From contig JACQXA010000004.1 in the NCBI GenBank assembly GCA_016208975.1, positions 621,501 to 685,500 on the forward strand: a stretch of DNA of 64,000 nucleotides, in the 5' to 3' direction. The translations under genes and the position numbers were made by a program. Positions 45,522 to 50,229 of the stretch are shown piece after piece; the first letter of the stretch is position 1, and each line of letters begins with the position of its first letter. The notes beneath the pieces were generated by a model, which saw only the letters and a list, made by a program, of their open reading frames with translations, made no database searches and was not told the DNA's origin. The stretch comes from Nitrospinota bacterium (GTDB taxonomy: Bacteria > Nitrospinota_A > UBA7883 > JACRLM01).

Positions 45522-47189
45522 ATGCTCGATCCCAATCAGGCCTCGAAATTGGCCGAGGACATAAACAAGACCATCTCGCTGGAGGGTGGGCCGGAAGTCA
45601 TTCCGGAGCCCGCAGGCTCCGCTGGTGACAGCGTCGTGATGACCACCCTTAAAGGGCGTTACACCATTTCCGCAAAGCTGGGCGAGGGGGGCATGGGCGC
45701 CGTTTACGCCGGGTTCGACAATCAGCTCCAGCAAAAAGTGGCCATCAAGCTTCTCAAAAAGGCCATGAGCAGGAACGAGAGGGCCATTGAACAGCTAAAG
45801 AGCGAGGCGCAGGTGGCCATGCGGCTTACGCATCCGCTCATAATGCGCCTTATAAACTTCGAGCGGGATGGCGAGATGGCCTTCCTGCTTATGGAAATGG
45901 TAAACGGGCGTACGCTGGAGAGCATTGTTAAAGCCCAGAAAGACGGGCGGCTGGCCTCCAAACCCGCGGCGCAAGTGGCCTACAAGGTTTGCGAGGCGCT
46001 GGAATACGCCCATCAGAACGGCGTCATCCACCGGGACATAAAACCGGCGAACATCATGATAGAAACCGGCAAGAACACGGTGAAACTCATGGATTTTGGT
46101 ATCGCCCGGGTCATCTGCGGCCCCTCGGGCCAGCGGCCCGTCATTGCCGGAACCCTTCCCTATATCGCCCCGGAGATTTTCGAGGGTAGCCCGCCGGAAC
46201 CCAGGGCGGACTTATACGCCCTGGGGTTGACGCTTTATGAAATCCTGGCGGGGGCTAACCCAATGCGTGGCAAATCCACCGAAGAGGTTATCCAGAACCA
46301 CGCCACGCTGACACCGCCCGCCATTGACGGGGTGGACCGGGGGTTGATGAACATCGTTCTCCAATGCGTGGAGAAAAAGCCTAACGCGCGGTTTCAGTCG
46401 GCTTCCGAGATGAAAGCGGCGCTGGCCAAATACCTGGATTTGGGCGAAGCCCGGGTGTCCCGCGAAAAGAAGGTGGTGGAGAGCGAGAAGAAACGCATTG
46501 AGGGGGAGTTCGCCCGGTTAAAAAGGGAGCAGGAAAAACTGCGCGCCATGGAGGAAAACCGGGATCAGGACACAATTTCATCCAGGCCGGTTTATGTGCA
46601 TACATCCACCAAGTCTCCGGCCTTCATAACGCCGCGGGAAATAAAGACCATAGCGGCCGTGGTGGGCGCCGGCGCATTGGGCGCCCTGCTGGATTCTTCC
46701 ATGAAAACCGGGGAGATGGGGCTTTTCGCCACCGCCTCGGCCTACGAAACATCTTCGGCCATCTTCGTGCCGATGCTTGTGGTGTCGCTCCCGGCATATT
46801 TTCTTCTGGGCGGCCGGGCGGCCGTAACGGGGATTGTGGCGGGGCTGGTGTTCGGCCTGGCATCTTTCAGGATGGGCACGTATTACATCGACACATCGCT
46901 GGAGAATGAAGGATGGGCCCCTTTCAAGCTGGTGGCCTACCTGACGCTGTCGGCCCCGGTGGCGCTGGGCATCGCTTTGTCCGTCATGACCCATTCCAGC
47001 TGGCGCGGCTCATTGGCCGCGGGGGGGCTGATAGCGCTGACCGCCGTTGGCGGGCTGGCGCTGGTGGAAGGCGGATTCGCCGAGGGGCTGTTCGGATTGA
47101 CCGAGGAGAACCTGGGAATGTTCGAGATTCCATTCCTTTCGGTGGCCGGATGGGGCGCCGCGGCTTTTTCGATTAATAAATGGCAATGA
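45522..47189 (+). CDS. Membrane Ser/Thr protein kinase
   Basis: 555 residues. The Hanks-type kinase domain spans about residues 46-310: G-E-G-G-M-G, Lys76, catalytic H-R-D-I-K-P-A-N (Asp172), D-F-G (Asp191) and I-A-P-E-I-F. A charged coiled coil (about 320-355) follows, then about six hydrophobic segments that make up the C-terminal third. This differs from the usual single-TM PASTA or WD40 layouts. With two FHA genes in the window it could form a phospho-signalling set, though they are 9 kb apart. Confidence 0.9.
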   Translation: MLDPNQASKLAEDINKTISLEGGPEVIPEPAGSAGDSVVMTTLKGRYTISAKLGEGGMGAVYAGFDNQLQQKVAIKLLKKAMSRNERAIEQLKSEAQVAMRLTHPLIMRLINFERDGEMAFLLMEMVNGRTLESIVKAQKDGRLASKPAAQVAYKVCEALEYAHQNGVIHRDIKPANIMIETGKNTVKLMDFGIARVICGPSGQRPVIAGTLPYIAPEIFEGSPPEPRADLYALGLTLYEILAGANPMRGKSTEEVIQNHATLTPPAIDGVDRGLMNIVLQCVEKKPNARFQSASEMKAALAKYLDLGEARVSREKKVVESEKKRIEGEFARLKREQEKLRAMEENRDQDTISSRPVYVHTSTKSPAFITPREIKTIAAVVGAGALGALLDSSMKTGEMGLFATASAYETSSAIFVPMLVVSLPAYFLLGGRAAVTGIVAGLVFGLASFRMGTYYIDTSLENEGWAPFKLVAYLTLSAPVALGIALSVMTHSSWRGSLAAGGLIALTAVGGLALVEGGFAEGLFGLTEENLGMFEIPFLSVAGWGAAAFSINKWQ

Positions 47190-47239: not shown

Positions 47240-49087
47240 ATGAACCCTGCCGACAAACAATCATTGCGATCAACGCTCAATCCATGGCCCCGAGCCCAGG
47301 CTATGGCTTTTTTCCTGCTGGTGACGCTCACGGTAACTGGCGTAATTCTTTTTCTCTACTATTCGGTGGACATAAAAGAGGCCTACTCTTCTTTATCCAC
47401 GGATGACAGGTTCTCGATTAAATCCGTTCTCCGGGGCGTCCACAGGCATGGCGGGGACCTGCTGGTAATTCTGGTGGCGGCGCACATGGCCAGGGCCGTT
47501 ATTAGCGGCAGGGCCATGAGGGGTGGCGGAGCGCCCTGGGCATTTGGGATGGGGCTTATGGCGTTTACCCTGTGGCAGGGTGTTACGGGGTATGCGCTAC
47601 CCATGGATGATAGGAGCGTGGGGGTAATTTCCCATGCCCTGCCGTGTCTTGAGACGCTTATCGGCCATCAGGGACCGTCGGCTTTCATGGTGACGGAGGA
47701 GATAACGTCCCGTACCATGATTTTGCTGTTGGCGGCCCATCTGGCCCCTCCCATTATCGCGGTGGTTTTGCTGGCAGGTCATTTCAAAAGGCTAGCGACG
47801 CCCAGACTTTGGCCGGGCAGGGGCATGATGGCCGCATGTGTGGCTGGCCTTGCGCTGGCCGCGCTTATAGCGCCCGCCACAAGTTTTTCAAAAGGGGATT
47901 TCCAGCGTTTGCCCGGAGCCATGGAATTCGATTGGCTCCTGATGGCTCCGTTGGCGTGGATTCCACAAACCCCATCGGCGCTGTTCATGTGGTTGACGGC
48001 GCTGGGCGCGATAGCCATATGCTCAGCCCCGGCGGTTATGGTCTGGCGCGTCAAACGAAAACCCGTGCTGGTAATTGGAAACCGGTGTGTAGGTTGCGGC
48101 CTTTGCGCCAAAGATTGCCCGTATGAGGCCATACTCATGGAGCCGCGCCCGGCGGACGATAAATGGCCGTGGCTGGCCACCGTTACAGAATCAAAATGTG
48201 AAGCCTGCGGGGTATGCGTGGGTTCTTGCGGTTTCTGGGCGATGGACCTGCCTTCCAACCCCACCGAAACTATCCGTTCCGCCACCGAGGGTTTCAAGAA
48301 TACAGACGCCGGAGCCTTGGCTTATGTGTGCAATAAACTTTACGGCGGTCAGGAATGGTTAGAAGTGGATGGGCTAAAAGTGAAGCTGATCCCGGTGGCA
48401 TGCGCGGGGCAGGTATATCCGGGCCTTGTTGAGCTGGCGCTGAAAGAAAACGCCCGGTTCGCCATGGTGGCCCGGTGCGCCTCATTTACGTGCGACGGCA
48501 GGCTGGGGAGCGATTATGCCCACGACCGTTTGTTCCATGCGAGAAAACCGTTTTTGAAAAAACGTGTGGACAGGGGCCGGGTGGCGCTGATTGCATTGGA
48601 GCCGGGGGAGAAAGATAAACTGCCAGCCGCAATCGCGGACACCGCGCGGGAGATGATGACAGGAGTCAAACCCTATGGGGCCGGAGTGAAGCGCCAGATA
48701 GTGGTTACTTTAACGGCTATCATGCTTGCGGCGGCGCTGGTGGGACTGGACAGGTTGTGGGCCGCTCTTCCCATGGAGCTTGAGACCGGTTCCACAACCA
48801 GGCTTATTCTCCATTACGAGACAATGGACGGCGGCACTATACGGGTTTTCCAGGGCGCTAAACCCCTAGCCCTTCTGGAAATACCTCCAGCCGCAGGATT
48901 TGAGCCTTCCGGCATTTACAAGGTTTTCGATTTGCCGTCCGGAGACAAGTCCGCACGGGTAACAGTCACGTCCGGCGGAAAGACCAGCGAAGTTGTCACT
49001 AAAAGCGGGCTAGTCCGGGGTGAGTCGGCGATTATCAGGCGGAACCCAGTCACCGGCAAACTGGAAGCCGTACTCCCCTTACGTTAG
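47240..49087 (+). CDS. Cytochrome b / 2x[4Fe-4S] ferredoxin / FlpD fusion protein
   Basis: 615 residues. The N-terminal six-TM region carries two pairs of histidines spaced 14 residues apart (His68/His82 and His167/His181), as for the two b-hemes of cytochrome b/b6. Two ferredoxin clusters follow: C-V-G-C-G-L-C-A-K-D-C (283-293) and C-E-A-C-G-V-C-V-G-S-C (320-330). A segment like the FlpD/MvhD hydrogenase iron-sulfur subunit comes next (V-A-C-A-G-Q-V-Y-P-G-L, A-R-C-A-S-F-T-C-D-G-R). One more TM helix (about 485-505) and a roughly 100-residue, probably periplasmic, beta-rich tail complete it. It likely moves electrons between a soluble carrier and the quinone pool; the partner is unknown. Confidence 0.85.
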   Translation: MNPADKQSLRSTLNPWPRAQAMAFFLLVTLTVTGVILFLYYSVDIKEAYSSLSTDDRFSIKSVLRGVHRHGGDLLVILVAAHMARAVISGRAMRGGGAPWAFGMGLMAFTLWQGVTGYALPMDDRSVGVISHALPCLETLIGHQGPSAFMVTEEITSRTMILLLAAHLAPPIIAVVLLAGHFKRLATPRLWPGRGMMAACVAGLALAALIAPATSFSKGDFQRLPGAMEFDWLLMAPLAWIPQTPSALFMWLTALGAIAICSAPAVMVWRVKRKPVLVIGNRCVGCGLCAKDCPYEAILMEPRPADDKWPWLATVTESKCEACGVCVGSCGFWAMDLPSNPTETIRSATEGFKNTDAGALAYVCNKLYGGQEWLEVDGLKVKLIPVACAGQVYPGLVELALKENARFAMVARCASFTCDGRLGSDYAHDRLFHARKPFLKKRVDRGRVALIALEPGEKDKLPAAIADTAREMMTGVKPYGAGVKRQIVVTLTAIMLAAALVGLDRLWAALPMELETGSTTRLILHYETMDGGTIRVFQGAKPLALLEIPPAAGFEPSGIYKVFDLPSGDKSARVTVTSGGKTSEVVTKSGLVRGESAIIRRNPVTGKLEAVLPLR

Positions 49088-49158
49088 AATGAATTTATAT
49101 AGAGTTATTTAACGGAAGCTCTCAATACTGGCTGGGCCTGTTGTTTACAACCGCAATG

Positions 49159-50229
49159 GATTTCTTAATCGAAGTTTTGCTAGCCACCTGGGATATATTG
49201 CGGGAATCGGCCATGTATGTGCTGGCCGGGTTCTTCATAGCCGGAATATTAAAAGCCTTCATGCCTTTCGAGGCGGTTAAAGCGCGCATGGGCGGCCCCG
49301 GCCTTATGCCGGTGTTCCGGGCGGCGGTGTATGGAGTGCCTCTCCCTCTTTGTTCCTGCGGCGTACTCCCTGCGGCGTTCGCCTTGAAAAAAATGGGGGC
49401 CAGCAAAGGCGCCACCACCGCATTCCTCATATCCACCCCCGAGACTGGGGTGGACTCCATAGCCATCTCCCTGGCCCTGCTGGACCCGGTGATCGCCATT
49501 TTCCGGCCCATCGCGGCTTTCATAACGGCATTCTCCGCTGGCGCGCTGGAAAACTATTTCGGCGATGGAGAGCCGGAACATTCCCATGCCCATGAAAACG
49601 GGGCTTCCTGTTGCTCGTCCGCGTCTTGCGAATTGAGCGCAACCCGCGCCAAAGGGGCTGGCATCATCCATGGGTTGAGAGATGGCGTAAGGTTCGCCTT
49701 CGTGGAGCTGATGGACGACCTGGCGTTGTGGCTTACCGCCGGGCTTGTACTGGCTGGCATTGTGAACGTTATTACGCCGCCGGACTTTTTCGAGAGGGCC
49801 TTCGGCGGAGGCGTTACGCCCATGCTGGTAATGCTGGTGGCCGGGATACCCATGTATATATGCGCCTCGGCCTCCACCCCGCTGGCGGCGGCCATGATAT
49901 TAAAAGGCCTTTCACCGGGCGCGGCGCTGGTTTTCATGCTCTCCGGCCCGGCCACAAACATCGTCTCCATCGCCACGGTCCGGCGGGTATTAGGCCTGAA
50001 ATCCACCGTCATCTACCTTGCCGCCATAGCCGTATGCGCCGTGGCCATGGGGATAACGCTGGATATGATATATGCGGCTATCAACATAGACCCGCTGGCG
50101 GCCATGGGCCAGGCCGCGCACTGGACGCCCGCATGGCTGGAAACCATCGCCGCCATAACGTTCCTTGCGCTGACAATGCGGAGTGTGGCCGTAAAAGCCA
50201 TGGCCAGGTTAAAGAACAACTCTTTGTGA
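49159..50229 (+). CDS. SO_0444/DUF318-type permease, putative Cu/Zn exporter
   Basis: 356 residues from ATG 49159 (a TTG 18 bases earlier is possible; neither has a strong ribosome site). About eight to ten TM segments, with the family signature G-V-P-L-P-L-C-S-C-G-V-L-P in the first half and a related G-I-P-M-Y-I-C-A-S-A-S-T-P in the second. The central loop is rich in possible metal ligands: H-S-H-A-H-E-N-G-A-S-C-C-S-S-A-S-C. The family includes the SO_0444 Cu/Zn efflux and ArsP-like permeases. The substrate is not certain. Confidence 0.85.
   Translation, partial: DFLIEVLLATWDILRESAMYVLAGFFIAGILKAFMPFEAVKARMGGPGLMPVFRAAVYGVPLPLCSCGVLPAAFALKKMGASKGATTAFLISTPETGVDSIAISLALLDPVIAIFRPIAAFITAFSAGALENYFGDGEPEHSHAHENGASCCSSASCELSATRAKGAGIIHGLRDGVRFAFVELMDDLALWLTAGLVLAGIVNVITPPDFFERAFGGGVTPMLVMLVAGIPMYICASASTPLAAAMILKGLSPGAALVFMLSGPATNIVSIATVRRVLGLKSTVIYLAAIAVCAVAMGITLDMIYAAINIDPLAAMGQAAHWTPAWLETIAAITFLALTMRSVAVKAMARLKNNSL

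Follow-up and report, generated by a model that had tools for sequence, protein, structure and literature searches.

A cytochrome b, ferredoxin and FlpD fusion protein beside a membrane Ser/Thr kinase in a Nitrospinota bacterium, a candidate transmembrane electron conduit

The 64,000-nucleotide stretch of Nitrospinota DNA analysed here (the window; all its features given below lie on the plus strand) carries a single ORF at 47240..49087 (ATG at 47240, stop at 49087) coding for a 615-residue protein. Pfam and AlphaFold resolve its product into a cytochrome b domain, two [4Fe-4S] sites, an FlpD domain, a seventh transmembrane segment (TM7) and a carboxyl-terminal tail. A Ser/Thr kinase with a carboxyl-terminal membrane domain is encoded immediately upstream (45522..47189), separated from the fusion by 50 nucleotides; the same pair is found in two other genomes (G001 and G003). 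The gene directly downstream (49141-50229) codes for a Cu/Zn efflux transporter of the SO_0444 family (391.8 bits, cut-off 300). These are the same-strand neighbours of the fusion: neither adjacent gene codes for a Rieske protein, and no hydrogenase or HdrA partner is present in the operon. The nearest named relative of the host, nNGHbin12, belongs to the Nitrospinota class UBA7883 (PMC10839748).

The amino-terminal cytochrome b domain (47294..47791, residues 19-184) comprises helices A to D with two b-heme sites, and residues 20-184 match the Pfam Cytochrome_B family with an E-value of 1.3e-13. The heme ligands H68 and H82 in helix B (47441..47485) and H167 and H181 in helix D (47738..47782), each pair with a spacing of 14, are invariant together with R65 in 68 aligned relatives, the window protein included. 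An AlphaFold model built from the alignment of the window protein with the family loci has a mean pLDDT of 82.7 and a pTM of 0.75. Its residues 6-270 superpose on cytochrome b of complex III (9ftz_H) with a Z-score of 20.5 and an rmsd of 3.8 over 256 residues, and by this superposition the predicted histidine pairs are placed as in complex III. The bc-type diheme cytochrome b with 14-residue histidine spacing proposed in the initial annotation is thus confirmed by Pfam, by the invariant ligands and by the structural match.

TM5 and TM6 (47819..48037, residues 194-266) are assigned to helices E and F of the cytochrome b carboxyl-terminal domain, joined by an ef loop with a variant of the PEWY motif, because their profile match exceeds that of column shuffles. 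Aligned to the carboxyl-terminal domain of full cytochrome b (31 sequences, mostly from Melainabacteria-type loci), the TM5-TM6 profile gave an hhalign score of 37.8 (E 1e-5), with DWFF set on DWYF. Among 100 column shuffles restricted to match columns the highest score was 19.8; a control not limited to match columns was uninformative, one shuffle scoring 140. The structural model agrees with this assignment. At the PEWY-like positions the Asp is found in 64 of 68 rows, the following Trp in 51 and the next Phe (position 233) in 59, giving a family consensus DWFF or DWFY. The window copy lacks the PEWY motif of the Qo site and reads FDWLL (D231-W-L-L234, 47930..47941), keeping the acid and the Trp and losing the Tyr/aromatic. 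Quinone reactivity, as supposed earlier, is plausible because the membrane part retains helices E-F and an ef loop resembling the PEWY loop of Qo-type sites, but the loss of the aromatic in the window copy tempers it. The protein shares with cytochrome b of bc1 and b6f complexes the two 14-spaced histidine pairs, helices A to F and the position of the ef-loop motif; it differs from them by the change of PEWY to DWLL, by the lack of a Rieske gene among its neighbours and by a cytoplasmic arm of Fe-S sites and FlpD that follows helix F.

The arm starts with two [4Fe-4S] sites (48077..48250) formed by cysteines 283/286/289/293 and 320/323/326/330. Pfam detects 4Fe-4S dicluster domains at residues 281-330, and each of the eight cysteines is kept in 67-68 of the 68 rows. 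The FlpD/MvhD domain follows (48308..48661), with cysteines 364, 388, 413 and 418 as a [2Fe-2S]-type ligand set conserved in 29-32 of the 32 rows bearing the domain; the Pfam FlpD match spans residues 380-471 (32.9 bits, cut-off 22.3). Modelled alone, the soluble arm reaches a pLDDT of 93.3 and superposes on MvhD (8rvu_F, Z 11.9; 5odc_D, Z 11.1) and on the carboxyl-terminal ferredoxin of HdrA (7bkb_A, Z 11.4). Its profile also hits MvhD chains with E-values of 1.7e-14 to 1.1e-13. Both the two ferredoxin clusters and the FlpD fold foreseen in the initial annotation are accordingly found. Neither outcome that the initial annotation had named as refuting, misplaced histidines or a missing FlpD fold, was thus observed.

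TM7 (48680..48763, residues 481-508; hydropathy peak near 486-504) is predicted to cross the membrane from the N to the P side. In many superpositions the cytochrome b alignment extends into this segment, near helix G, a model-based likeness that is suggestive only. The tail that follows (48764..49084, residues 509-615) has about 107 residues and is predicted to be periplasmic and, from the strands of the model, β-rich. The additional carboxyl-terminal membrane segment and tail noted earlier hold up in hydropathy and in the model.

Several known proteins resemble parts of this architecture. HdrA2, an HdrA-MvhD fusion, has a carboxyl-terminal arm with the same stretch of two [4Fe-4S] sites and FlpD, and the fusion matches this arm alone (residues 574-768, E 5.2e-18, 64.5 bits against a cut-off of 1100); unlike HdrA2, it has no FAD-binding thioredoxin-reductase-like domain among its Pfam matches and carries the cytochrome b in its place. 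QmoC offers a comparison by mode of action, a membrane b heme being joined to an Hdr-type cytoplasmic Fe-S domain, but it combines cytochrome b with an HdrC-like ferredoxin, whereas the fusion has FlpD and a bc-type fold; qmoC is absent among the 25 matches listed for the window protein, and a true QmoC is encoded elsewhere in the genome. The best NCBIfam match of the cytochrome part is ExtP (NF040969, E 3.6e-22), a b-type cytochrome of selenite/tellurite operons, from which the fusion differs by its score (79.2 bits, cut-off 290) and by the arm, which is lacking in the 205 positions of the ExtP model. The architecture itself has a prior mention in PMC8756737, where Table A3 lists a Chloroflexi ORF (RME88945.1) with cytochrome b6, DMSOR-beta-like and FlpD domains and a C1 cytochrome homolog, as an entry given there with no proposed function. 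Beyond this table entry, no functional description of a cytochrome b/FlpD fusion was found in the open literature, outside which most subscription journals lie. The protein is a recurring new combination of known parts, already present in that one published table.

A scan of named genomes with the single sequence gave no relatives; an alignment-based genome scan found cytochrome b/FlpD fusions in many phyla. The fusion regarded as unusual in the initial annotation is real as a single protein, but it is not unusual within its own family. The family is widespread, lies usually beside nitric oxide reductases or oxidases and apparently carries no name; this link to eNOR and oxidase operons, missing from the earlier reading, emerges from the neighbours of the relatives. 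A paralog in the same genome (G000:C1) is clustered with a cupredoxin subunit, a heme-copper subunit I, an SCO1-like protein and a 175-aa protein. In an alignment to the ba3 oxidase of T. thermophilus, the subunit I of this cluster has Gln at the position of the cross-linked Tyr, a residue described as the eNOR signature in PMC8756737. The neighbouring heme-copper subunits of the family have Gln in 26 aligned rows, which include repeat rows of the same genomes and so stand for fewer distinct genomes, and Tyr in two actinobacterial rows. No Gln-bearing subunit I of eNOR type lies beside the window copy; the paralog has one. Its subunit I and cupredoxin genes (L006:13034-15099) form an eNOR-like pair in Nitrospinota, a phylum in which norBC was reported absent from the genomes analysed and in which most UBA7883 genomes carry caa3-type oxidases (PMC10839748). 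A search of the genome for NosZ gave three matches below cut-off, one of which falls on the eNOR cupredoxin gene. Obscuribacterales-type genomes divide the architecture between two adjacent genes, one for the cytochrome b-ferredoxin part and the other for FlpD. The annotated locus of this type (L064:716-9505, a Melainabacteria-type operon) has COX1, FixO, cytochrome c, Rieske and cytochrome b genes followed by the cytochrome b-ferredoxin gene and a separate FlpD gene, and gene sizes look similar at the other Obscuribacterales-type loci.

The relatives also shed light on the tail. Most eNOR-linked relatives have a fusion that stops after FlpD, with a distinct protein of some 175 residues encoded next; a few have both as one protein. 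The window-type tail (three sequences) matches this family with an hhalign probability of 78-80%, and a plain HMM match is weak. The tail, to which the initial annotation could assign no role, is thus probably a relative of the small protein with a membrane anchor that has its own gene in most eNOR-linked members, as judged from profile similarity. Members such as L094:9485-10012 and its relatives are membrane-anchored, about 175 residues long, and many contain a C...HM...C segment that is a possible metal site; the one member scanned has no Pfam match. The segment is not universal in the separate proteins, some having HS, some HM without a match to the cysteine pattern and some neither, and it is absent from the window tail. 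In L101 (Chloroflexota) and in L106 and L109 (Actinomycetota) the tail continues into a terminal domain with a CxxCH motif, scored by Pfam as cytochrome c in L109, the sole member scanned. These domains suggest that electrons are exchanged at the periplasmic face of the membrane.

The genome was searched for partners of the cytoplasmic arm. The HdrA search hit 18 places, with strong matches at two adjacent ORFs of a Qmo cluster and further hits at the two fusions and at weaker sites. FlpD domains are found three times, once in the Qmo cluster and once in each fusion. The Qmo cluster (L009:27-9722, G000:C4) contains aprA, two HdrA-like genes, qmoC and the sulfate adenylyltransferase gene sat, which together point to APS-linked sulfur metabolism. 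At the one [NiFe] hydrogenase locus read, no FlpD partner of MvhAG type was found, its neighbours being unlike MvhAG; at a different locus, some 6 kb ahead of the window (G000:C4:614008-615510), lies a stronger match to a [NiFe] hydrogenase large subunit. These results bear on the electron bifurcation or reverse electron flow suggested initially, by which the two electrons of quinol oxidised at the Qo-like site would part, one going to an acceptor in the periplasm and the other by way of the b hemes into the cytoplasmic arm. The retained Qo elements, with an acidic residue at the position of the PEWY Glu, and the CxxCH-bearing periplasmic-side domains of some members are compatible with this scheme. 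Yet the kinase-fusion pair has neither Rieske protein nor flavin domain, no HdrA-like gene lies near the fusion, the sole strong HdrA matches outside the fusions being those of the Qmo cluster, and the aromatic of the PEWY-like motif is lost. Bifurcation thus gains no specific support here and we consider it quite improbable.

In the phylogenetic tree the window protein and its counterparts of G001 and G003 form one clade with support 100/95, apart from the eNOR-linked paralog, of which it is not a recent duplicate; its place among the other branches is unsure owing to long branches. The fusion could be imagined to assist in trans the eNOR whose operon lies at another place in this genome, considering the shared architecture and the location of the paralog in the eNOR operon. 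This is very unlikely, given that the eNOR operon has its own copy and that the window clade did not arise by recent duplication of it. The long branch and the degenerate PEWY-like motif could also suggest a decaying duplicate devoid of function. We give this hardly any credence: the ORF is intact and, at about 40% identity to the nearest relative, has lost none of the 16 ligands of hemes and clusters.

The window clade is found in 3 of 24 Nitrospinota genomes, always immediately after the gene of a membrane Ser/Thr kinase, a partner that had escaped the initial annotation. The pair is encoded on the same strand in these three genomes, which belong to two families; their kinases share 53-68% identity over the kinase domain and the other neighbours differ. 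Related kinases with no adjacent fusion occur in three more genomes (G005, G009 and G010). In G005 and G009 (L146:4423-6667 and L148:4206-6405) the gene following the kinase has a small product carrying an LMCLCGC motif, which in G009 has a weak match, below cut-off, to the heme lyase subunit NrfF; these small proteins are possibly cytochrome c maturation factors. The association with the kinase could mean that the fusion is a redox sensor, whose hemes and clusters would inform the kinase of the redox state of quinone or of the cytoplasm and would carry little electron flow in bulk. The conserved same-strand pair, the separate clade with long branches, the motif loss at the Qo-like site and the absence from the tail of the C-HM-C segment of many eNOR-linked tails all fit a sensor. 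However, the retention of all heme and cluster ligands goes beyond obvious sensor needs, gene order alone is no proof of interaction and relatives of the kinase occur without the fusion. We regard a pure sensor as doubtful.

We prefer the hypothesis, to which we grant an even chance, that the fusion is a transmembrane electron conduit working together with the adjacent membrane kinase in the window branch. Sequence and structure prediction give its frame: a truncated bc-type cytochrome b with helices A to F, both heme sites and a Qo-like ef loop, extended by an HdrA2-type arm with no flavin domain. In HdrA, electrons pass from MvhD through the ferredoxin to FAD. Because the same arm feeds FAD there, FlpD is read as the likely entry and heme b as the acceptor in place of FAD. 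A cytoplasmic partner would dock at FlpD, and electrons would run from the [2Fe-2S] site through the two [4Fe-4S] sites to the cytoplasmic-side heme b and then to the periplasmic-side heme b, from which a quinone, or an acceptor in the periplasm close to the tail, could take them. By analogy with HdrA this direction from FlpD to heme b is likely, and the reverse is possible. In the relatives the same conduit would operate next to operons for eNOR or oxidases. The window branch would have left such an operon to work with the kinase, and its electron flow or redox state is possibly coupled to kinase signalling. A conduit is supported by the retention of all cofactor ligands, the cytochrome b, HdrA-ferredoxin and MvhD folds, helices E-F with their PEWY-like motif, the heme-copper enzymes among the family neighbours, the CxxCH tails and the kinase-fusion pair of three genomes. 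It is weakened by the negative search for an FlpD partner, limited to one hydrogenase locus, and by the lost aromatic of the window motif; the kinase link is weakened by its restriction to three genomes and by the related kinases without fusion in three others.

The family could alternatively act as a respiratory module whose cytochrome b passes one quinol electron to a carrier in the periplasm (the tail, a cytochrome c or eNOR) and exchanges the other with the FlpD arm, under kinase control in the window branch. We hold this to be unlikely; were it true, quinone chemistry would be joined directly to cytoplasmic Fe-S metabolism. The neighbours of the family suggest that the heme-copper enzyme of these Nitrospinota may reduce NO and not oxygen, and make the fusion family a possible, testable partner for eNOR. 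If the preferred conduit is correct, widespread bacteria, relatives beside NO reductases among them, would possess in a single protein a path linking the Fe-S metabolism of the cytoplasm with the respiratory chain of the membrane.
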